DNA of 64,000 nt from Bacteroidetes bacterium ADurb.Bin008. GTDB taxonomy: Bacteria; Bacteroidota; Bacteroidia; Bacteroidales; Tenuifilaceae. The stretch spans positions 1 through 64,000 of the forward strand of contig MWFE01000024.1 in NCBI GenBank assembly GCA_002071445.1, read 5' to 3'. Numbering within the stretch: position 1 is the first letter of the stretch; every line of letters starts with the position of its first letter. Below, in pieces: positions 10,233-64,000 of the stretch. The notes under the pieces are model-generated. The model searched no databases and was not told where the DNA came from. It worked only from the letters and a program-made list of their open reading frames with translations. Made by a program: the position numbers and the translations under genes.

Positions 10233-12008
10233 ATGAAACGAACTTTTTTATATATACCGCTCCTGCTGGCAATCGTGCTGGCATCGTGCAGCACACCCCT
10301 GACGGAGGAACAGAAGCAGGCCGACTCGGTACTGTTCAAACAGATACATGAATATACCCTGAACCCTGATGGGAGCATGGTTTATAGGTACTACCACAAA
10401 AGGCTTTACAATACCTACCAGTCGTTTCACCGTTATTATGGCGAAACGTTTGTTTCCTTCAACCCTGATTATCAGACTCTGAAAGTAAACCTGTCGAAAA
10501 CCACAATGGCCGATGGGAAAGTGGTGCATTCGCCCGACAACGCCTTTAACGAGATTCTTCCGTTTCATGCAAGCCTTGCGCCCGCTTATAACCATTTGCG
10601 CGATATGGTTATCACCCATGTGGGGCTCGAGATAGGAGCAGTGGTTGAGCTGGATTATACCATTGAAACCAAAGCGGGCTACGTACCCTGCTTTTCTGAG
10701 GATATAATATTGAACCAAACGTCGCCCGTTAAGGATTTGGAAATTATTGTGAGGGTGCCCAAAGGGCACAGGCTTAGCAATAAGGTACTCAACGCCCCGG
10801 CCAACCTAAAAGAGAAGAGAAAAACGGAAGGCGGTTTCCAGGTGGTCAAATGGCATGCTACCGAAGTACCTCCCATTGCCAACGAAGCTTTACAGTCCGA
10901 TGGAATGGCCGATTACCATAGGTTAATGTTCAGCGAATGGGATTTGGAACAGGTTATTAACTACTACAAAAATACCTTCACGAAGGAGATTAACGATGAT
11001 CCATCGCTTGATAAGCTGCTGAACGACAAAAAGGAGGGATGGGATAAGGTTGAGGCCATCAGGAATTATGTTGTATCCAACATCAACACCTACAGGGTTC
11101 CGCCCCGGAATTGCGGGTATCAGTTTAGGTTACCCAACGATGTATGGAAAAGTAATGGCGGAACCGAGGGCGACAAGGTAATCCTGCTCTCGGCCCTGCT
11201 AAAAAAGGCGGGTTTCGATGCTCGCCCCGCCTTTGGGACATACTCACATTTAATAGACAAGGAAATTGGTTGCGCTTCGGCGTTCGACAGGTATTACGTT
11301 GCTGTTGAATTCGATGGCGAAACCCGCTATCTGAGTGCCATTGGCTACAATTCGCCCAAATCAGACTCCAGAATGGTTATTGTTTCTGCCGAACAGCTGG
11401 ACTCCATTGATGCAGAGGGGAAGAATACCGGAATGGCCACGAGCTTAATCTCAACGCTGAGTGTGGATGCCAAGGGATTTGTATCGGGAACGGGGACTCT
11501 TGCCATGAATCCTTATGATAAGGATGGGGGAATGTTGGGTGGCATACCCAGAAACTGTGTGAAAACCGAAAAGATCAGTAACGACAATGAATCTGACATT
11601 TTCTCAGTTACCATTTCCAATGCAAAATCCGAAGCCATGGGAGTCTATTTTAGCTTTACCCTGCCTGTTATTGCCCAGGGTTTTGAGTGGGTTAGAACGG
11701 GCGAACTTCCAAGCCAACGTATCACCCCTTTACATTTGCCATGGACTGTTGACGAACGTTATGATTTTACCATTTCTGCACCCGATGGGTTTACATTTGT
11801 TAACCCGGGCTACGATGAGCAACTGGAGAATGGTGTGGGGAGCGTAAAAATCGGACATAGAGTTCTGGAGAGCGGTGAGCTACACATTGAAAGGCAACTC
11901 TCAATTTACCAGAGTGTGATTCCTGCAGAGAGTTACAATGATTTCAGGGAACTTATAAATATATGGAAAGATGTGAATTTGAATAGGTTTATAGTGAAAT
12001 CGAAGTAA
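10233..12008 (+). CDS. DUF3857 lipoprotein, transglutaminase-like fold with triad lost
   Basis: A 591-residue lipoprotein (signal ends VLASC, Cys19) that repeats the DUF3857 plus transglutaminase-like layout of its upstream neighbour. Aligning GTEGDKVILLSALLKKAGFD with the neighbour's catalytic segment puts Glu where the Cys should be. The segment AFDRYYVAVEFDGETRYLSA puts Arg and Ser at the His and Asp positions. It is therefore probably a non-enzymatic partner or binding protein. It follows the active paralogue by 5 bases and is closed by a strong terminator at 12033-12072. The function of the pair is not known. Confidence 0.82.
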   Translation: MKRTFLYIPLLLAIVLASCSTPLTEEQKQADSVLFKQIHEYTLNPDGSMVYRYYHKRLYNTYQSFHRYYGETFVSFNPDYQTLKVNLSKTTMADGKVVHSPDNAFNEILPFHASLAPAYNHLRDMVITHVGLEIGAVVELDYTIETKAGYVPCFSEDIILNQTSPVKDLEIIVRVPKGHRLSNKVLNAPANLKEKRKTEGGFQVVKWHATEVPPIANEALQSDGMADYHRLMFSEWDLEQVINYYKNTFTKEINDDPSLDKLLNDKKEGWDKVEAIRNYVVSNINTYRVPPRNCGYQFRLPNDVWKSNGGTEGDKVILLSALLKKAGFDARPAFGTYSHLIDKEIGCASAFDRYYVAVEFDGETRYLSAIGYNSPKSDSRMVIVSAEQLDSIDAEGKNTGMATSLISTLSVDAKGFVSGTGTLAMNPYDKDGGMLGGIPRNCVKTEKISNDNESDIFSVTISNAKSEAMGVYFSFTLPVIAQGFEWVRTGELPSQRITPLHLPWTVDERYDFTISAPDGFTFVNPGYDEQLENGVGSVKIGHRVLESGELHIERQLSIYQSVIPAESYNDFRELINIWKDVNLNRFIVKSK

Positions 12009-54085: not shown

Positions 54086-57000
54086 ATGCAGCCATTCAGT
54101 CAAAGCAGATTTAGGCAAATAAATTGTATTAGCGGCTGGTTTGCTTTTGCAATAGCAGCCATCGTATATCTTCTCACCATAGAGTCCTCGGCCAGCTTTT
54201 GGGACTGCGGCGAATTCATTGCTAGTGGCAATAAACTATTGGTTGGGCACCCTCCCGGAGCCCCTTTCTTTATGTTAATGGTGAGGGTTTTTACCATGTT
54301 GTCACCAAGCAAGGAGTTAATTCCTGTTTTGGCTAATTCGCTTTCGGCTCTTGCCAGCGCTTTCACTATCCTTTTCCTGTTCTGGTCTGTTACTCATCTG
54401 GCGCGGAAAATGGTGAAAACCGATGACGGTAATTATTCCCTGTCCCAAATGGTATTGATTATAGGCTCAGGTTTAGTTGGGGCGTTAACCTATACTTTTT
54501 CCGATACCTTTTGGTTTTCGGCCGTTGAAGCCGAGGTTTATGCCACCTCTTCACTTTTCACCGCATTGGTTTTCTGGGCAATTTTAAAGTGGGAAGATGT
54601 GGCCGACGAACCCCATGCCAATAGGTGGATTATCCTGATAGCATACCTCATGGGTTTGTCAATTGGTGTTCACCTCCTGAACTTATTGGCCATTCCGGCC
54701 ATCGTTATGGTTTACTACTTCCGTAAATATCAGGTTACTACAAGGGGCGTTGTCAAGGCTTTGGCATTGGGAGTTCTCCTTTTGGCCGTGATGATGTATG
54801 GGATAATTCAAGGTTTTGTTGTTCTGGCCTCCAAGTTTGAACTGCTATTTGTCAATGGATTTGGATTGCCCTATTCATCAGGTGTTTTCTTCTATTTTGC
54901 CGCCATTGCCGCCCTGCTAATTTGGGGAATTCGCTATTCGCATATTAAGGTTAACCCCATACTGAATACCGTCCTGTTGAGCTTTGCGGTCATTATCATT
55001 GGCTATATTTCATTCGCAGTTATTGTTATCCGATCCTCTGCAAAGCCGCCCATGGATCAGAATAGCCCCAACAATATGTTCTCGTTGCTGTACTACCTGA
55101 ATCGCGAGCAGTATGGCGATCGCCCATTGTTTAAGGGGCAATCTTTCGATGCCCCTTTGGTTGACAGGCAGGAGGGGAGCCCTCAGTACATACAGAAAGA
55201 TGGGAAATACGTTGTGGCATCGCGGAAGTCAAAATTGGTTTTCGATGATCGTTTTGTAACTTTTTTCCCCAGAATGTATAGCTCCGAAGCACGCCATGTT
55301 GAGGCGTATAAGCAGTGGACAAATTTTAAGGGTCATGCTGTTCGGGTTGTTGGGCGCGATGGAGAGCCGGAGATTAAATATGTGCCGACCTTTGGTGAAA
55401 ATTTAAGGTTTTTCTTTTCCTATCAGTTGGGTCATATGTACTGGCGCTATTTTATGTGGAATTTCGCCGGAAGACAAAATGATATTCAGGGTAATGGCGA
55501 AATTGTTAAAGGGAATTGGATCAGCGGAATACCTTTTATAGATACTCCACGGCTGGGACCACAGCAGGATCTCCCTTTTACTTTTCGCAATAAGGGGCAC
55601 AACAGGTATTATCTGCTGCCATTGCTATTGGGTATAGCCGGGCTTATTTGGCACTACTCCCGCAATCAGCAAGACTTTTGGGTGGTATCGCTGCTGTTTG
55701 TCTTAACGGGTATTGCCATTGTGGTTTACCTTAACCAAACACCCTATCAACCGCGCGAACGTGATTATGCATATGCAGGGAGTTTTTATGCTTTCAGCAT
55801 TTGGGTTGGACTTGGAGCAATAGCATTGTTCCAACTTATTAAGAAAGCCATTGATAAAACCCCCGGAGCAGTGTTGACGGTTTTGCTTAGCCTGATCTTT
55901 GTCCCCGGCATCATGGCATATGAGAATTGGGACGACCACGATCGGTCGGGAGGTTACCTTGCGGTAGATTTTGCCAACAATGCCCTTAACACCTGCGAAC
56001 CCAATGCAGTCATCTTCACCTATGGCGACAACGACACTTTCCCTCTTTGGTACGCCCAAGAGGTTGAGGGGGTGAGGAACGATGTGAGAGTGTGCAATTT
56101 GAGCTATCTGCGTGCCGATTGGTACATCGATCAAATGCTGCGTAAGGCATACGATTCCAATCCCTTGCCTGTAAGCATGACTTCGGACAAATATGTTGCC
56201 GGGACACGTGAGGTGGTATTGGCGCTCGACCGTATCCCCCAGCAAATAAACGTTAAGCAGGCGGTTGATTTTGTCCTAAGCGAAGACCCGAATACCAAAC
56301 TCAATTCACCATTCGAGAGGAACCAGAAGGTTGATTTTTTCCCTTCCAGAAGTTTATACTTACCCGTAGATAAGCGCATTGTAGAGGAGAAAGGCGTTGT
56401 GCCCAAAAGTAAGATGGGAATGGTGGTTGATACAATGAAATGGCGACTCCCTACCAATTATGTTTTAAAAGATGGGCTTTTCCTTATGGATCTTATGGCT
56501 CACAACAACTGGGAGCGTCCCGTATGCTTTGCCATTACGGTTAGTTCGGATACTTACCAAAATTTAGATAAATACTTTCAGATGGAGGGCTTGGCCTACA
56601 GGATTGTGCCCATTGAGGCCAAAAGGACAGGGGGTAGGTATGGCACCGTGGATAGCGAAAAGCTGTATGAATTGTTGATGAACCAATATCTTTACAGGGG
56701 TATTGATGATCCCAAGGTGTATATCAATGAGAATAGCAGTAGGATTATTTCAAACTATCGCAATTTGTTTGGACGGCTTGCACAAGCGTTGGCTGATGAG
56801 AACAAAAAGGATTCGGCCATTCTAGCCCTCGATCGTTGCATGACGGTAATTCCTCCAAAACTGGTGCCTTTCAACTTTTTTGCTTTGTCTTTGATTGATG
56901 GATACTACAGGGCAGGAGCCAATGAGAAGGCTGTGGAGGTTTCGAAAATCTACGTTGATCAATGTGCCGAAGAGTTAAACTATTTCCTTTCTCTGCCCGA

Positions 57001-57154
57001 TAAGTTGTTTAGAAAGGTGCAGAACGAAACCGAATTGAACCTTTACATACTTCAGGAATTGCATAAAATGGCCTCGTCATATGGGCAGAATGAGCACAAG
57101 GAGGAGATTGAAAATGTATATGGATTGGTTGCCCAAAAATATTCTTTTGAATAG
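54086..57154 (+). CDS. DUF2723 multi-pass membrane protein (TMEM260/O-mannosyltransferase-like)
   Basis: A 1022-residue membrane protein. The N-terminal DUF2723 region (about 15-330) has many helices and the family segment [30 protein letters not shown] (here around residues 30-60, cited in part), with an acidic residue in the first loop as in GT-C glycosyltransferases. More helices occur at about 510-620, and a soluble C-terminal half contains [18 protein letters not shown] and [17 protein letters not shown]. Human TMEM260 of this family is a protein O-mannosyltransferase. The bacterial substrate is not known, but a role in O-glycosylating exported proteins fits. It is followed after 6 bases by a NodB deacetylase gene. 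Confidence 0.88.
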   Translation: [1022 protein letters not shown]

Positions 57155-57160
57155 TTTTTT

Positions 57161-57787
57161 ATGATTAACCTTAGCCCTCCGAAGTTTTTTACTGATCTTT
57201 TTCCAAACCCCATTTGGAGGATGCCCGGTAACAATAGTACCGTTTATCTTACATTTGATGATGGCCCCACGGAAGGGGTAACTCCTTGGGTGCTGGATAA
57301 ACTTAAAGAGCACAGTGCCCGGGCAACATTTTTCTGCTTGGGCAAAAAGGTGGAAATGCATCCTGATATCTATCAACGGATCCTTGATGAGGGCCATGCT
57401 GTGGGTAATCACAGCTATAGTCATCTTAAGGGGTGGGAAACCCGCACAGGTCAATATGTTCAGGATGTTGATTTGGCCGCCGATTTGATTAATAGTAAAC
57501 TATATCGTCCTCCCTATGGGAGGATAAAAAGATCACAGTTCCGCATACTGAACGAGCGCTACAAGATAATACTGTGGAATGTGCTGAGCATGGACTATAA
57601 CCGCTGGGTTACACCAAAGCGGTGTGCCAATATTGTGCTCAACAATATTCATCCCGGAGCCATAGTGGTATTCCATGACTCAAAAAAGGCTGAAAAAAAT
57701 ATGAAGTATGGCCTTGAGAAAACCCTTGAGGAGATAAAGAAAAGGAACTTTAATTATGGCTTGATCACCGAGGAGTCGTTTTTATAG
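57161..57787 (+). CDS. Polysaccharide deacetylase (NodB/CE4 family)
   Basis: A 208-residue CE4-fold hydrolase predicted to remove acetyl groups from an N-acetyl-hexosamine polymer. All five family motifs are present: TFDDGP (catalytic Asp and metal Asp), HSYSH (metal His pair), RPPYGR, the LWNVLSMDYNRW segment, and VVFHDS (catalytic His). It lacks an obvious signal peptide. It starts 6 bases after the DUF2723 gene and is probably in its operon. Its stop overlaps that of the convergent nucleotidyltransferase gene by 6 bases. Confidence 0.93.
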   Translation: MINLSPPKFFTDLFPNPIWRMPGNNSTVYLTFDDGPTEGVTPWVLDKLKEHSARATFFCLGKKVEMHPDIYQRILDEGHAVGNHSYSHLKGWETRTGQYVQDVDLAADLINSKLYRPPYGRIKRSQFRILNERYKIILWNVLSMDYNRWVTPKRCANIVLNNIHPGAIVVFHDSKKAEKNMKYGLEKTLEEIKKRNFNYGLITEESFL

Positions 57788-58906
57788 TTTTCGCCCCTCC
57801 CTGCGTTTACCAAACTTTCTTTTGTAAGCATTGAAATGTTCCCTGTACCAATGCCTGTTTCCCAGGCGGGCAAAAACGTAATTCCTTGCGTTTTTATCAA
57901 ATAGTGTCCTGAATGGGAGGACAACGTACTTTATCAGTGAGTTTATTATAAAGTGATGAAACACAAGTTGCCGATGGCTCATGGATAGTATTCTGTCGTG
58001 TCTTTTTATGAGCAGCGAACGGCTCCGGGTAAGTTTCTCGGGAAGGGGAAGATCAAATACCCTATACATCAATTTGAGGTATGCCATGCTTTTGCGCTCG
58101 AAGTGCTTAAAATGGCCTAATGCTTTGAAGGCATCCTCCCTTTGATTCAAAAGCAGCATGTCGTAAAGGTTTCGCAGCGAGACATCGGCATGGTAATGGG
58201 CGTTGTGCATCAGCTGCGAGTGTATGAAATTGTGAATGATTTTGTTGGTGTCGCTCATCACCCAAAAACCGGCATGGGTTGGAGACTCTTTTTTGGTTTC
58301 AAAAACCTTTTCCCCGGGGAACGATTTAATATAATGGTATTGTACGGGTAGCCTATGCAGTTCCACCCCTGCCATAAAATCTTCGCGTATCAGCACTGGG
58401 AAGTGCATGGTTGACGGGTAGGCCAATGGATTAAAAACCTTGTGCGTTTTAAATCCACTATCCATAAGAATCTGAGCGGCTTCTAACATTCTCTCGCCAT
58501 CAATGAGAATATCCATGTCATAAAGCATTCTCTCACCCATGTCGTGGTATAGCCCATCCAAAATGTTCCCGACGCCTTTCATGAAAACACACCGAATCCC
58601 ACTGCCATCGAGCAGTGCTTGTACATATTTTGCCTGATTGATAATACTGGTGTTTCGCTCCACGTTCATCCCATGTATTTGACTAAGGTATTGCGAGAGG
58701 TCTATTGGTAGATATGACAACAGCCGATTATCCCTAAGGGTAACATAAAGGGATTGGAGTACAAGGTTGTCGCTACCCACCCGTACCCATTTTTCCCAAT
58801 CGCTTTTCTCCTTGGGCAGGTTTGTAATGACGGTATCAATCCTATCGGCCTTGACATGGAGTGACAGGATGAGCGAAAGAAGGTGGTAAATTTGTTTCTT
58901 GTTCAT
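57782..58906 (-). CDS. Nucleotidyltransferase-fold protein (PF14907 type)
   Basis: A protein of about 374 residues. The central nucleotidyltransferase-like part (about 95-190) reads CVFMKGVGNILDGLYHD and then GERMLYDMDILIDGERMLEA, in which DMD supplies the two metal-binding aspartates. The segment GFKTHKVFNPLAYPSTMHF and HRLPVQYHYI follow. A basic C-terminus ends KRKFGKRREGRKL. The ATG at 58906 follows the kinase-like gene's stop almost directly (an ATG at 58927 is the alternative, overlapping it). PF14907 proteins co-occur with HprK-like kinases in some lasso-peptide clusters, where they extend phosphate groups. Here it is the last gene of the peptide cluster. Confidence 0.83.
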   Translation of the reverse strand: MNKKQIYHLLSLILSLHVKADRIDTVITNLPKEKSDWEKWVRVGSDNLVLQSLYVTLRDNRLLSYLPIDLSQYLSQIHGMNVERNTSIINQAKYVQALLDGSGIRCVFMKGVGNILDGLYHDMGERMLYDMDILIDGERMLEAAQILMDSGFKTHKVFNPLAYPSTMHFPVLIREDFMAGVELHRLPVQYHYIKSFPGEKVFETKKESPTHAGFWVMSDTNKIIHNFIHSQLMHNAHYHADVSLRNLYDMLLLNQREDAFKALGHFKHFERKSMAYLKLMYRVFDLPLPEKLTRSRSLLIKRHDRILSMSHRQLVFHHFIINSLIKYVVLPFRTLFDKNARNYVFARLGNRHWYREHFNAYKRKFGKRREGRKL

Positions 58907-58908
58907 GG

Positions 58909-60018
58909 CTACTCTACTAACGAGCATAGTGCCTCAATGGCCTTATCGTTATTACCATATTCCAATCTGTGGAAATTCAGCGTGGAAAACCAATCGATGA
59001 ATTGCTGTGCCCGTTTAATATCATTACCCACCCACGATTCGTTGAGGAAAAGGGCAAGAGCATCAAGCGTTGATACTTTTTCAAAAAGCAATTCCTTCTC
59101 CTTGCAATACTTGATGAACACTATATTCTTAACCTTCCCGTGAGTCACTTTTTGGTTTTCAGGGTTATGTTTGGCAAAGCCAATTTTGCCCTGTGAAAAG
59201 GTTTGGATTACCATGCCTTTACCCTTCATCAGTTCAATGGCATCGTTCTTAAGGGATAGTGCAGCAGGGAATGCATATACCCTTTGGCTGTCTGACTCAA
59301 TGGGTACGTAATCATCGGAAAGGAATGTGAGCCCCCTTAGCATTAGAAGTGCTGCCATGGTGCTTTTCCCCGAACCTTCAGACGAAGTGAGGATTAGCAC
59401 ATTGTCATTTTTGGCCAATGCCGATCCGTGAACAAATGAAAGCCAGCCGTCCTCATTCTTATCGTAGAGATAATTGGTAAGTTCCAGGTAGAGTAAACGT
59501 TTTATCTGCCCTGATTCGTCGGCCAACCTGCATTCTCCGCCAGGGCCATTGATCCTAAGCGCATAGCGCTTTTCAAAGGGGAATACTTCAAGATTAAAAT
59601 TACACCTGTCATGGGTATCAGTCTCAAGGTGGGCCAATGGCCAATGGATATATCGTTGGAGTTGTGGTGAGCCGTAGGTGATAGAAAACGATTTTCCCAG
59701 GTGGCTATAAAATCTTGTTTTCTTGCCTTGCAGCACATAACCCGAGGCTTTCTCAGCATTTAGCGAAAAGTTTGGTAAATCGAAAGGGGGATTGAAAAGG
59801 GCATCCAACGATTGGTAAATACTTTCGACCATGGATTTAGCCTTTTCTTCTGCCATTGAAAAGCGAGAGGCAACTTGGACAGTGGCGGTAACTTGTGCAA
59901 TCCCTTGCTCATAAAAACAAAAGATGAGCCATTGCAGCTCATCAAATTGTACCCACTGATTGCTCGCCTCAATCCACAGAATATAGGCCTGCCCTATTCT
60001 CTTAACTATATATGCCAC
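58909..60018 (-). CDS. HPr-kinase-like protein with PqqD-like N-terminal domain
   Basis: A 369-residue cytosolic protein. Residues about 1-75 (GQAYILWIEASNQWVQFDEL, then a helical part ending KSMVESIYQSLDAL) resemble the PqqD fold, which binds leader peptides of modified peptides. Residues about 190-345 resemble HPr kinase: the P-loop TSSEGSGKSTMAALLMLRG (Lys218), FLSDDYVPIE with the paired aspartates, and AFPAALSLKNDA. It lacks the HPr-contacting C-terminal signature I would expect in a true HprK. The GTG start at 60018 lies 32 bases after the small peptide gene, and the nucleotidyltransferase follows directly. Predicted to phosphorylate a peptide or small molecule, by inference. Confidence 0.8.
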   Translation of the reverse strand: MAYIVKRIGQAYILWIEASNQWVQFDELQWLIFCFYEQGIAQVTATVQVASRFSMAEEKAKSMVESIYQSLDALFNPPFDLPNFSLNAEKASGYVLQGKKTRFYSHLGKSFSITYGSPQLQRYIHWPLAHLETDTHDRCNFNLEVFPFEKRYALRINGPGGECRLADESGQIKRLLYLELTNYLYDKNEDGWLSFVHGSALAKNDNVLILTSSEGSGKSTMAALLMLRGLTFLSDDYVPIESDSQRVYAFPAALSLKNDAIELMKGKGMVIQTFSQGKIGFAKHNPENQKVTHGKVKNIVFIKYCKEKELLFEKVSTLDALALFLNESWVGNDIKRAQQFIDWFSTLNFHRLEYGNNDKAIEALCSLVE

Positions 60019-60050
60019 TTGTGGTGGTTACTGCTTTATTGTAACAAGGT

Positions 60051-60251
60051 TTAATCCCACTCCCAACCTCCACCGGGATCACCGGGATCGCCAGGGCTCT
60101 GGGCGTAAACCTTGGTTGGGTTATTCAGCAATAGAAACATGGTGGAAGCCGCAAAGGCAGCATACCCCATCTTACGAATGGCTTCCCTTCTCGTAATCCC
60201 CTCCTTTTCTTCGCGATCCCTGCCTATTTCTATTTCTTTGTCGTTCTTCAT
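60051..60251 (-). CDS. Small exported peptide with twin-arginine-like signal, candidate modified-peptide precursor
   Basis: A 66-residue product. A charged N-terminus (KNDKEIEIGRDREEKEG) is followed by the Tat-like motif TRREAIRKMGYAAFAAS (about 19-35), a hydrophobic stretch and an AxA-type site VYA at residues 48-50. Cleavage there leaves a 16-residue tail, QSPGDPGDPGGGWEWD, with a PGD repeat and two Trp residues. It is too short to be an enzyme. It is followed after 32 bases by the PqqD/HprK-like gene and then the nucleotidyltransferase, the layout of a small peptide-modification operon. Whether the tail is modified is unknown. It could instead be an ordinary small Tat-signal peptide. Confidence 0.72.
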   Translation of the reverse strand: MKNDKEIEIGRDREEKEGITRREAIRKMGYAAFAASTMFLLLNNPTKVYAQSPGDPGDPGGGWEWD

Positions 60252-60265
60252 GATGCAAATTTATA

Positions 60266-60273
60266 CAAATATA
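60266..60273 (-). promoter_or_regulatory. Possible -7 promoter element of the small-peptide operon
   Basis: On the minus strand TATATTTG matches TAnnTTTG, 14 bases before the ATG at 60251. It lies in the 113-base AT-rich gap after the adhesin gene. No TTG was found at the usual spacing. Confidence 0.4.
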
Positions 60274-60364: not shown

Positions 60365-63300
60365 TTAATTTATAACGATTCTTCTTGTGACTTTGTTTTT
60401 ACCATCGCCGATAGTAATCAGGTAAACTCCCTTGGATCTATCCTTTAGTCTAATGGTCTCCTGAATGTTGCCGTCGGAGGTATTGAAATAGTTGTGGAAA
60501 ATAGTTTGCCCAACGGCATTATGTATCGTAACACTTACCCTTTGTGACGATAAACCGCTAATGTTAATGTTTATGTCTCCATTTGTTGGGTTGGGATAAA
60601 GATTCAAAATCCACGAAGTGTGCGTATCAATGCCCGTAGGCCCTACGTTGACCACAGCACTATCACGAGTGGAACAGCCAAACTCGTTGGTAACCTCTGC
60701 CCAGACATCAAATGTACCCAGGCCCCATTCCGATCCCACAAAGAGATATGTTTGATTTGTTGAACCATCGAACCAGAGGTATTCGGCGAATCCTTCACCC
60801 GCATCGAACAGGTACTCTTCAGCAACAGTGATGTTTATATCATCATTGGCAAGAATAAACTCGGGGAGCGGATTTACGGTAACGGTAACCTCGGCGGTTG
60901 TCTCACAACCCGTGGCTGTGTATGTGGCCGTAGCAATATAGGTGGCGGTTTGTTCCGGGATGAACTCCTCCCCGTTAACCACACCATTGTTCCAGTCAAA
61001 CACATCGGCATTGCCCGTGGCGGTTAGCGTAACGGGCTCGCCGTGGCAAACGGCAAAGTTGTCGGGTACTTCGATGGTGGGAAGCGGATTTACCGTAACG
61101 GTAATCTCGGCGGTTGTCTCACAACCCGTGGCTGTGTATGTGGCCGTAGCAATATAGGTGGCGGTTTGTTCAGGGATGAACTCCTCCCCGTTAACCACAC
61201 CATTGTTCCATTCAAACACATCGGCATTGCCCGTGGCGGTTAGCGCAACGGGCTCGCCGTGGCAAACGGCAAAGTTGTCGGGTACTTCGATGGTGGGAAG
61301 CGGATTAACCGTAACGGTAACCTCGGCGGTTGCCTCGCAACCGGTGGCGGTATTCACTGCCGTTAGAATGTAACTTGTGGTTTGCTCAGGGATAAACTCT
61401 GCCCCATTGACCACGCCATTGTTCCACTCAAACACATCGGCATCGCCTGTAGCGGTTAGCGTAACCGATTCACCGTAACAAACGGCAATATCTTCGGGGA
61501 GGGAAATGGTGGGCAATGCGTTTACCACGATTACCTCCGGGTTTGATTCTGCATGGGATCCGCCAACCGAAACCATCACGCTATAGCTGCCCTCCTCAGT
61601 GGCATGGTAAGTTTTAAGGGTTGCACCAGCTATTGGCTCCTCGTTTTTATACCACTGGTAGTTAACCCCATCAACATCGGCTGTGAATGTTACATCAATG
61701 GCATCGCCTTGACAGTAGTTCAGATTATCTGTAGTGCTGATTGCCACCTCGTTAACACCCCTGCCAATATGCAGGAAGAACCTTCCCAGTGCCTCGGTAT
61801 TGGCGGCAATGGTTGCTGAGTAGCTTTCGCTGCTAAGGGTGGTGAAAATACCTGTTTCCCTGTCTTCCAGCCATGCGGTGATATCCTGCGGTAAGGAGTT
61901 TGATACGGCCGAAAAGACAATTACTCCGCTTGAATTATTGGTAAATCCAAGAGGAATAATTAAAACATTTTCAAAATTATCGGGCAAAGCCTGAATGGCA
62001 AATTCCATATCATTATCCTCTTCCTGTGATGCACTGAAAAACCTAAAGTTAACATTGTCAGTGTAGAGCCCTGCGTCAAAACCTTTATCAATACCGTAAG
62101 TCATTTCGCTATTAAAGGCAATAGCCGTATTTAAAACCTTTCCGGAGGAATTTTGTGCCATTAAATCAACGATATGCCAATCCTCAACTTTATCGGATTT
62201 ATAAAATGTTGGGTTTTCATGTGCCCTCATTCCGGATTCAAGGGTAACGGTTCCCGGATCAATTTTAGCCTTTACCAAGAACCCTTGGGCAGATGCCAAA
62301 TATTTTTGGGATAAGCCGGGTACACCGTTAATCACTTGGTACTGACCGGAAGTTCCCGATGGTACCCAGATGTATAAACCTGAATATTGAGTATCAAATT
62401 GACCATTATATTTTCGGTAGAAGCCCCCTGTTCCCTCGTTGGCATTTAAGCCGGAGGCAAATGGGTTACCAATGGCATTCCAACCACTGCTGGTTTCGGT
62501 CCGTACCAACTCAATGGTTTTACTTGTGCTGGTTAAAAGCCCTTTATAAGTTATTGTTCCCGGAGAAGCAAGCCCAATGGCGTAGGTAGTTCCTGGCACA
62601 AGATTGCCTGCCTGATTTGCAGGGTAAAAGGATGACCATGTACCTGTTGTCTCAATGTAGTGCCTCATGGCATATACGTTATTGGTCGAATTGTATGCAA
62701 GCACTCCTGAGTTTTCGGCAATAAAATTTGCAATGGTTTGTCCCTCCACAGGGGTGGAAATTAGGTGGAATTGCTGCGTGCCCGGAACGTAACGCTTAAC
62801 TGTAGCCGGTACATTTTCGGTATTGTGTATTATGGTTGCCGAACCATCTTCATCTGATTCTAGCACAAGCCCCTCGAAACCATTGTTGTTGTTAAGTGAT
62901 CCTGTGCTGGTTATTTTGCCTTGCGGCTCAACAATAACCTGGCCTCTGATGCAAAGCTGATCGGTGGAGGTTAAATGTCCTGTTGACGAAATGGTAAGGG
63001 TTGCCCCTCTCGCAACATTGGTAATGTTTAACGATAACTGTCCGGATAAAACAGGAAAAACGGATTCCTCGTTTTTTCTGATAAGCACATTACTTCCTGC
63101 GGTTGGTACCCCGCTTGACCAATTCCCACTTTTACCCCAGTCTGTTCCGGAGTCCCCTGTCCAGTAGTTACAGTCGCTTGCTGGAAATTCATAGTCTTCC
63201 TGCCAAAGCAAGAAGGGGTATTTACCATTATCATGAGTATTAATGCCCCAAATCTGACAGGTGAAGTGCCAACCCGCATTGGTAAAAGTAGATTCAGTTT

Positions 63301-64000
63301 GCATCTGTGCTGTTGTACGGGCAGTGCCCCCTTGAGAGCCAATACTACCGAAAGAAGTTTCATCCCAAAAACTGTTGGTAATAGTACCAGTATTGCTAAT
63401 ACAGAATCCGGCTATGCTACCTCCTGAAATAGTACCCTGTGCATAGCAATTAGTAATAGTCCCTTCATTTTCCCAAACAAATCCACTTGCAATAGTCTCA
63501 TCATCTGGGTCATCAGAAGTCTCAATGGTTCCTCTAAAATATGAGTTGGTTATATTCCCAGTGGAGGTATTTGACCCTACAAAACCACCCCCCGTAATTT
63601 CGGATATGTCAGAATCAATGTAAACGTTAGAATAACATTGGTCGATATAAGATGTGTTTCTTCCAACCAATCCCCCGAAAACGGAACTTTCAAAAGAAGG
63701 CGTTAAAGAACCTTTTGCGTAACTTGTGTTAATGGTACCTTCATTCTCGCCTACTAAACCCCCACTACTGGTTCTCCCTTCTATAGTACAATTGGCAAAA
63801 CAATTGCTTACAACACCGGAATTAAGATTTTTGCCTATCAAACCTCCGGTAGGGGTTCTCCCCGTAACGCTTCCCGTTGCTGAGCAGTTTTCTACAACTC
63901 CACGGTTATATGCAACCAGACTTCCCATGTAATTTCGCCCTGTTATGCTAACATCTGTTAATACTACATTTTTAATAACAGCTGTTGAGGATGTTGCAGC
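60365..64000 (-). CDS. Giant type IX-secreted adhesin with GLUG repeats (5' end beyond window)
   Basis: Only the C-terminal 1211 or so residues are in the window; the frame stays open to base 64000. From the N-terminal side there are GLUG-type repeats (e.g. GGLVGENEGTINTSYAKGS, GGLIGKNLNSGVVSNCFANC) up to about 63250, then a long beta-rich part with AKGFDAGL-like stretches. An Ig-like unit follows (YQWYKNEEPIAGATLKTYHA), then three tandem 72-residue repeats. The type IX C-terminal sorting domain comes last, starting LYPNPTNGDININISG and ending GVYLITIGDGKNKVTRRIVIN (cited in part). The PorZ gene in this window fits secretion by that route. It probably acts as a surface adhesin or matrix protein. 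Confidence 0.9.
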   Translation of the reverse strand, partial: AATSSTAVIKNVVLTDVSITGRNYMGSLVAYNRGVVENCSATGSVTGRTPTGGLIGKNLNSGVVSNCFANCTIEGRTSSGGLVGENEGTINTSYAKGSLTPSFESSVFGGLVGRNTSYIDQCYSNVYIDSDISEITGGGFVGSNTSTGNITNSYFRGTIETSDDPDDETIASGFVWENEGTITNCYAQGTISGGSIAGFCISNTGTITNSFWDETSFGSIGSQGGTARTTAQMQTESTFTNAGWHFTCQIWGINTHDNGKYPFLLWQEDYEFPASDCNYWTGDSGTDWGKSGNWSSGVPTAGSNVLIRKNEESVFPVLSGQLSLNITNVARGATLTISSTGHLTSTDQLCIRGQVIVEPQGKITSTGSLNNNNGFEGLVLESDEDGSATIIHNTENVPATVKRYVPGTQQFHLISTPVEGQTIANFIAENSGVLAYNSTNNVYAMRHYIETTGTWSSFYPANQAGNLVPGTTYAIGLASPGTITYKGLLTSTSKTIELVRTETSSGWNAIGNPFASGLNANEGTGGFYRKYNGQFDTQYSGLYIWVPSGTSGQYQVINGVPGLSQKYLASAQGFLVKAKIDPGTVTLESGMRAHENPTFYKSDKVEDWHIVDLMAQNSSGKVLNTAIAFNSEMTYGIDKGFDAGLYTDNVNFRFFSASQEEDNDMEFAIQALPDNFENVLIIPLGFTNNSSGVIVFSAVSNSLPQDITAWLEDRETGIFTTLSSESYSATIAANTEALGRFFLHIGRGVNEVAISTTDNLNYCQGDAIDVTFTADVDGVNYQWYKNEEPIAGATLKTYHATEEGSYSVMVSVGGSHAESNPEVIVVNALPTISLPEDIAVCYGESVTLTATGDADVFEWNNGVVNGAEFIPEQTTSYILTAVNTATGCEATAEVTVTVNPLPTIEVPDNFAVCHGEPVALTATGNADVFEWNNGVVNGEEFIPEQTATYIATATYTATGCETTAEITVTVNPLPTIEVPDNFAVCHGEPVTLTATGNADVFDWNNGVVNGEEFIPEQTATYIATATYTATGCETTAEVTVTVNPLPEFILANDDINITVAEEYLFDAGEGFAEYLWFDGSTNQTYLFVGSEWGLGTFDVWAEVTNEFGCSTRDSAVVNVGPTGIDTHTSWILNLYPNPTNGDININISGLSSQRVSVTIHNAVGQTIFHNYFNTSDGNIQETIRLKDRSKGVYLITIGDGKNKVTRRIVIN
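60865..61512 (-). repeat. Three tandem 216-bp repeats inside the adhesin gene
   Basis: The copies start at about 60865, 61081 and 61297, each 216 bases (72 codons). The first two are nearly identical in DNA and the third has diverged. Each encodes a unit with VCHGEPV or VCYGESV, LTATG, ADVFEWNNGVVNG and TATGCE. The near-identity points to recent duplication and to likely length variation by recombination. Confidence 0.9.

Follow-up and report, generated by a model that had tools for sequence, protein, structure and literature searches.

Related systems and the locus

The closest described counterparts of the genes treated here come from lasso-peptide biosynthesis, in which HprK-like kinases (PadeK, ThcoK, PsmK) are paired with nucleotidyltransferases on a ribosomal precursor, and in which a His-Lys-Asp-Asp tetrad of the kinase has been demonstrated to be necessary (PMC9266682). 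For pseudomycoidin, PsmK phosphorylates a Ser and PsmN is needed to place a hexose on the phosphate (PMC9266682). Two other points of comparison are HPr-rel-A, an NCBIfam gene set of a TIGR04352 kinase and a PqqD-family protein, and the recognition elements (RREs) of ribosomally synthesized and post-translationally modified peptides (RiPPs), such as PqqD and TfuB1 (6jx3). A third is the type IX secretion system (T9SS) with its type A cargo (TIGR04183/PF18962) and PorU transpeptidation, and with a type B cargo class that is paired by gene order with a cognate PorP/SprF gene (PMC10202324). The present analysis concerns a gene set in the first 64,000 nucleotides (the window) of contig MWFE01000024.1 from Bacteroidetes bacterium ADurb.Bin008. 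It consists of a 66-residue signal-bearing peptide, a kinase with a fused RRE-like domain, a nucleotidyltransferase and a large T9SS protein. The peptide is tightly paired with this T9SS type A sorting-domain protein, whose gene lies directly upstream and is the fourth part of the unit. The features are the following:

60365 to 64000, minus strand: partner, a large secreted protein of 1316 residues with GLUG and Ig-like repeats and a T9SS type A sorting domain; the gene runs to about 64315, beyond the window, and the full open reading frame is in L050
60051 to 60251, minus strand: precursor peptide, 66 residues, with a charged N-terminus, the signal segment TRREAIRKMGYAAFAASTMFLLLNNPTKVYA and the predicted tail QSPGDPGDPGGGWEWD; the family holds 34 distinct peptides
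60054 to 60101, minus strand: predicted mature tail, with Ser52 as its sole Ser, Thr or Tyr, from sequence and family conservation
58909 to 60018, minus strand: kinase, a fusion of an RRE (PqqD-like) domain and an HprK-like core, 369 residues, GTG start; H197, K218, D235 and D236 invariant
59779 to 60018, minus strand: predicted N-terminal RRE/PqqD-like domain, residues 1-80, from AlphaFold2 (AF2) topology, PF05402 matches in 9/20 members and a TfuB1 match
58909 to 59451, minus strand: HprK-like catalytic core, residues 190-369, with the P-loop SEGSGKST, an SDD motif and a fold match to 1kkl
57782 to 58906, minus strand: PF14907 nucleotidyltransferase, 374 residues, ATG start, with invariant D-x-D and K-G motifs

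The kinase start codon lies 32 bases past the peptide stop and that of the nucleotidyltransferase 2 bases past the kinase stop, so that the three closely spaced minus-strand genes of the first-pass annotation are confirmed in their coordinates. That annotation ended the unit with these three genes and missed both the upstream sorting-domain gene and the C-terminal domain (CTD) subtype of the partners described below. The source genome (G000) is a 3.06 Mb draft in which kinase and peptide each occur as a single copy, and its closest named relative is a Bacteroidota metagenome-assembled genome (MAG; L051).

A conserved module in Bacteroidota

Loci were drawn from genomes of the family and order of the window genome and from a named genome collection. 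Across 34 loci, the kinase was found in 30, the nucleotidyltransferase in 26, the peptide in 19 (by clustering) and the secreted protein in 14, with all other families at seven or fewer. Kinases related to that of the window occur in 3 of the 27 genomes of the family and, at a loose cut-off, in 27 of 295 of the order, many of the weaker matches at order level being other HprK-like proteins. Among 395 genomes sampled from the phylum, peptide and kinase profiles that were searched separately matched the identical five (G000, G448, G583, G882 and G962); three of these belong to one genus, so the independent events number fewer than five. Furthermore, the kinase is present in all 12 genomes checked, including four that were found via the peptide, and the peptide adjoins the kinase from close relatives out to kinases that are about 25% identical. 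The recurrence of the peptide family next to the kinase across many Bacteroidota shows that the small frame did not arise by chance, and the check proposed in the first-pass annotation, conservation of the small peptide beside the kinase in relatives, turned out in its favour, with 34 distinct peptides collected by a profile built from the first 7 members and later from 21. These observations support the reading of the three genes as one conserved module.

Pairing of the peptide with T9SS cargo

The partner in the window carries a clear sorting domain (PF18962, 51.9 bits; TIGR04183, 47.3 bits against a cut-off of 23), and TIGR04183 scores above cut-off in all seven partners tested. The peptide lies directly 3' of a same-strand gene for a large secreted sorting-domain protein in 26 of 32 scorable cases; 24 of these pairings were assigned by script (nearest upstream gene on the same strand) and two (L068) by inspection, while two of the 34 peptides, at contig edges or truncated, were left unscored. 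Pairing by chance is very unlikely because sorting-domain genes are so few per genome, with 47 in G000 and 75 in the flavobacterial genome G583. In G583 and G962, likewise flavobacterial, the enzymes are encoded apart from all peptides, and each peptide copy follows a sorting-domain gene or a sister copy (one second tandem copy). The N-terminal regions of the partners are mutually unrelated (YDG, LTD, LRR_5, HYR, Calx-beta, GLUG and fn3), the sorting domain alone being common to them.

The partners thus share their sorting domain with known type A cargo, but a dedicated modified peptide was not found described for any T9SS route, nor was the pairing of a tiny exported peptide with one large T9SS surface protein; a literature search for T9SS together with RiPP and phosphorylation returned incidental papers only. 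The arrangement resembles that of type B cargo in that a CTD class is paired by gene order with a helper of its own (PMC10202324). The helper there is an outer-membrane protein, whereas here it would be a tiny modified peptide, and the CTD is of type A.

Many of the partners have a CTD subtype of their own. The six partner CTDs of G583 form one clade apart from 20 other CTDs of that genome, with a mean identity of 46% inside the clade and 22% to the others, and they lack the PNP motif. A profile of flavobacterial partner CTDs retrieves seven proteins in G583 at 84-112 bits, six of them with a peptide, and the rest of the genome at 43 bits or less. In G962, whose sequences were not in the training set although close relatives were, it retrieves six proteins at 79-101 bits, five of them with a peptide. 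Five relatives that lack the kinase reach at most 46 bits with this profile. The Bacteroidales partners outside the family of the window genome are also without PNP, and outside this family nearly all partners have the N-terminal PNP motif replaced by hydrophobic-x-hydrophobic-x-Gly. A single CTD profile across orders was tried and set aside: a Bacteroidales-trained profile separates the flavobacterial partner CTDs only moderately (area under the curve 0.71, with a non-partner sample biased to high Pfam scorers). No such profile is therefore claimed, and the loss of PNP is taken as the discrete feature.

Named strains carrying the subtype include Maribellus maritimus (L056) and Sunxiuqinia elliptica (L063). 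A recent review asks whether differing T9SS sorting signals imply differing fates (PMC10202324); with a CTD subtype to which a helper peptide and two enzymes are genetically linked, this question becomes testable by gene removal in such strains.

Exported proteins with a phage tail collar domain are encoded just upstream of some sorting-domain/peptide pairs in Bacteroidales and flavobacteria (L059:3258-5003, L105:2593-3252 and L106:2183-2839; PF07484 was tested for L059 and L105).

The precursor peptide

Within the peptide the leader varies least, its consensus being roughly [ST]R[KR]xA[IL]KKxGYxAxxAxTMMxLLxxPxKAxA with invariant R21, A24 and G29. On the Tat (twin-arginine translocation) signal assigned in the first-pass annotation, the evidence points both ways: the window peptide has Arg-Arg and TatC was found in 12 of 12 genomes checked, yet Arg-Arg is not a rule of the family, 29 of whose 34 peptides have Arg-Lys at this position. 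Tat is thus a plausible candidate route of export.

Tail starts were set by a simple A-x-A cleavage rule of our own, a heuristic, which gives lengths of 3 to 59 residues. Many tails have around ten residues, for example ASPEAPGEGF, ASPAPPPPW and SSPEVPGSGF, with ASPEPPGSGF and VSAPPPPPPW among the others; most begin with Ala or Ser and have a Ser at positions 1-3. A Ser falls inside residues 1-5 in 30 of 33 tails (within-tail shuffles: mean 19.1, maximum 28 over 2000), and an aromatic residue inside the final four, also in 30 of 33 (mean 11.7, maximum 20); as the sequences are related and not independent, these figures show conservation and not probability. Ser2 of the tail (Ser52), named as one candidate acceptor in the first-pass annotation, appears from the conservation of Ser at the tail start, and as the only hydroxyl residue of the window tail, to be the best phosphate acceptor.

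One Prolixibacteraceae MAG has two peptides, one on either side of a single kinase-nucleotidyltransferase pair (L062:7189-7473 and 10504-10725), and just one of them has a sorting-domain gene. Some divergently placed peptides of this type have long tails rich in Gly, Asn and His.

The kinase and the nucleotidyltransferase

The AF2 model of the kinase, from an alignment of 20 homologues, has a mean predicted local distance difference test (pLDDT) score of 90.8. Its N-terminus is predicted to form three strands followed by three helices (E3-8, E11-16, E21-25, H27-37, H42-52, H57-75). When the N-termini of the 20 members were scanned singly, PF05402 (PqqD) was matched in nine, with a best E of 2.1e-4, and any other family in at most one; the window N-terminus scanned alone gave no PF05402 match. 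Against lasso RREs, the N-terminal profile reached E 0.011 with TfuB1 (6jx3) and E 1.1 with TbiB1, both outranked by an unrelated chain, while hhalign of the domain with the TfuB1 fragment gave a probability of 92%. In a fold search with the whole model the kinase core outweighs the rest, and the assessment of the RRE domain therefore uses only topology and profiles. The predicted order of strands and helices and the profile matches liken it to known RREs, with the difference that here it is fused to a kinase; the RRE survey literature searched does not mention kinases.

The core (residues 190-369) matches the Lactobacillus casei HprK/P structure 1kkl with Z 13.0 and a root-mean-square deviation (rmsd) of 2.8 over 130 residues, and residues 82-369 match phosphoenolpyruvate carboxykinases (PEPCK) with Z about 14 and rmsd about 5 over 270 residues. 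The HPr_kinase_C match is sub-threshold. The tetrad H197, K218, D235 and D236 is invariant in 20 of 20 kinases. Modelling and alignment thus support an HprK/PEPCK-like core with the tetrad of the lasso kinases intact, and the two-domain protein proposed in the first-pass annotation is borne out at the level of predicted structure. Its suggested link to HPr-rel-A did not hold, the TIGR04352 score of 67.4 bits being far short of the cut-off of 200. The two systems are alike in tying an HprK-related kinase to a PqqD-like fold, but here this domain is fused and the unit includes a peptide and a T9SS protein. A literature search for HprK with PqqD and a nucleotidyltransferase, and for HprK-related kinases, gave no match.

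The third gene is, as previously assigned, a PF14907-type nucleotidyltransferase (98.7 bits, gathering cut-off 31.2). Its model (pLDDT 88.1) matches ANT(2'')-Ia (4wqk; Z 13.4, rmsd 3.0 over 163 residues) and MenT toxins, and a sequence search of the PDB returned nothing useful.

Proposed mechanism and alternative explanations

We lean, with somewhat better than even confidence, toward a RiPP-like peptide that is phosphorylated in the cytoplasm, then exported, and that serves a class of T9SS surface proteins. After synthesis of the precursor in the cytoplasm, the RRE fused to the kinase may bind its conserved leader, and the HprK-like core may phosphorylate the Ser (Ser52 in the window) that adjoins the signal cleavage site. 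The PF14907 enzyme could then add a nucleotide, or help to add a sugar, onto the phosphate, as PsmN does after PsmK. The signal segment would direct export by Tat or Sec, signal peptidase would release a tail of about 10-16 residues, and this tail would work together with the product of the adjacent upstream T9SS cargo gene, most probably in its sorting, anchoring or display. These steps are derived from the gene and structure data above and from family precedent; the gene set, its conservation and co-occurrence, the partner pairing and the CTD subtype of many partners are observed, and folds and catalytic residues are supported by prediction and alignment. If true, the system would represent a RiPP-like family defined by an RRE-kinase fusion, with phosphorylation as its founding step. 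It would also connect peptide modification to type IX secretion, a link that was not found described.

Several observations weigh against this reading. Six peptides, five of Prolixibacteraceae and that of L076, lack a sorting-domain gene directly upstream, and at several loci with kinase and nucleotidyltransferase a peptide was not detected. Certain tails are long and rich in Gly, Asn and His. Within the family of the window genome the partner has an ordinary YPNP-bearing CTD, and the partners of the window and of G020 carry PNP. G882 has one peptide and several proteins of intermediate subtype, most without an adjoining peptide, and one subtype protein of G583 (L178:3467-5713, 748 residues) and its counterpart in G962 (L179) have no recognizable peptide beside them. 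The CTD subtype is accordingly common without being universal.

In a more specific version, quite improbable as it stands, the T9SS sortase would use the phosphorylated and further modified peptide as a dedicated acceptor. PorU or a paralogue would remove the sorting domain and join the partner C-terminus to the N-terminal amine of the tail, the peptide replacing anionic lipopolysaccharide (A-LPS) as tag or anchor. Leads in this direction are the cargo-peptide pairing, the CTD subtype of many partners, the Ala/Ser tail starts with Ser at 1-3, and precedents for PorU-dependent processing, in which an N-seryl sugar normally supplies the amine (PMC10202324) and which in Porphyromonas gingivalis lacking A-LPS attaches free peptides that start with small residues (PMC4560394).

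The tail might instead be released as a signalling or antimicrobial phosphopeptide, a pheromone or toxin, which the T9SS protein would receive, bind or process at the surface. Secreted effectors are common among RiPPs, and the short tails with a conserved core, the several paralogues per genome, each with a large surface protein of its own, and the histidine-kinase-type genes near some loci would agree with this; but the unrelated N-terminal regions of the partners argue against a receptor fold, and no transporter, protease or immunity gene recurs among the loci compared, which leaves the explanation rather unlikely. Alternatively, the small protein could serve as a recognition tag or activator while the enzymes modify something else, for instance the T9SS protein or a carrier lipid or sugar. 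Against this, enzymes fused to an RRE usually modify the very peptide whose leader the RRE recognizes, the tail Ser and terminal aromatic residue are conserved beyond shuffles, and the partner would need to be phosphorylated before crossing two membranes. The constant leader, the variable tails and the partner pairing would suit such a role, which we nevertheless consider unlikely.

The affinity with lasso systems could also mean that the unit is a lasso-peptide cluster, degenerate or diverged, in which cyclase and peptidase were lost and the tailoring pair of kinase and nucleotidyltransferase was retained. The enzyme types are paired as in pseudomycoidin and the RRE-like domain is close to TfuB1; in both systems an HprK-like kinase with the tetrad would act with a nucleotidyltransferase on a (likely) Ser acceptor, PsmN being likened by role and not by PF14907 membership. 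However, a leader peptidase (B2 type, PF13471) and cyclase, already noted as absent in the first-pass annotation, are missing from the unit and its window neighbours and recur nowhere in the 34 loci, the scope of this comparison being these loci and not whole genomes. Moreover, the tails lack a conserved ring acid at 7-9, as ASPEPPGSGF, ASPAPPPPW and VSAPPPPPPW illustrate, and a conserved C-terminal Ser, their conserved Ser standing at the start. The RRE is fused to the kinase, a T9SS partner is present, and a signal peptide takes the place of the protease-cut leader. L047 (described below), a lasso-type locus from the order to which the window genome belongs, also differs in make-up from the unit. 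Such an origin is therefore very improbable.

Genomic neighbourhood

A PADLOC scan gave zero matches and thus no sign of a known defence system. The window neighbours of the three-gene unit are the sorting-domain protein on one side and, convergent to the unit at 54086-57787, a TMEM260-like O-mannosyltransferase-type protein and a small polysaccharide deacetylase, which are kept adjacent in three loci (L050, L060 and L034). Genes of the same two kinds adjoin L047:7616-9940 in another Bacteroidales genome, where the gene for an HprK-like kinase of 299 residues precedes one for a PF13471 (lasso B2-type) protein.

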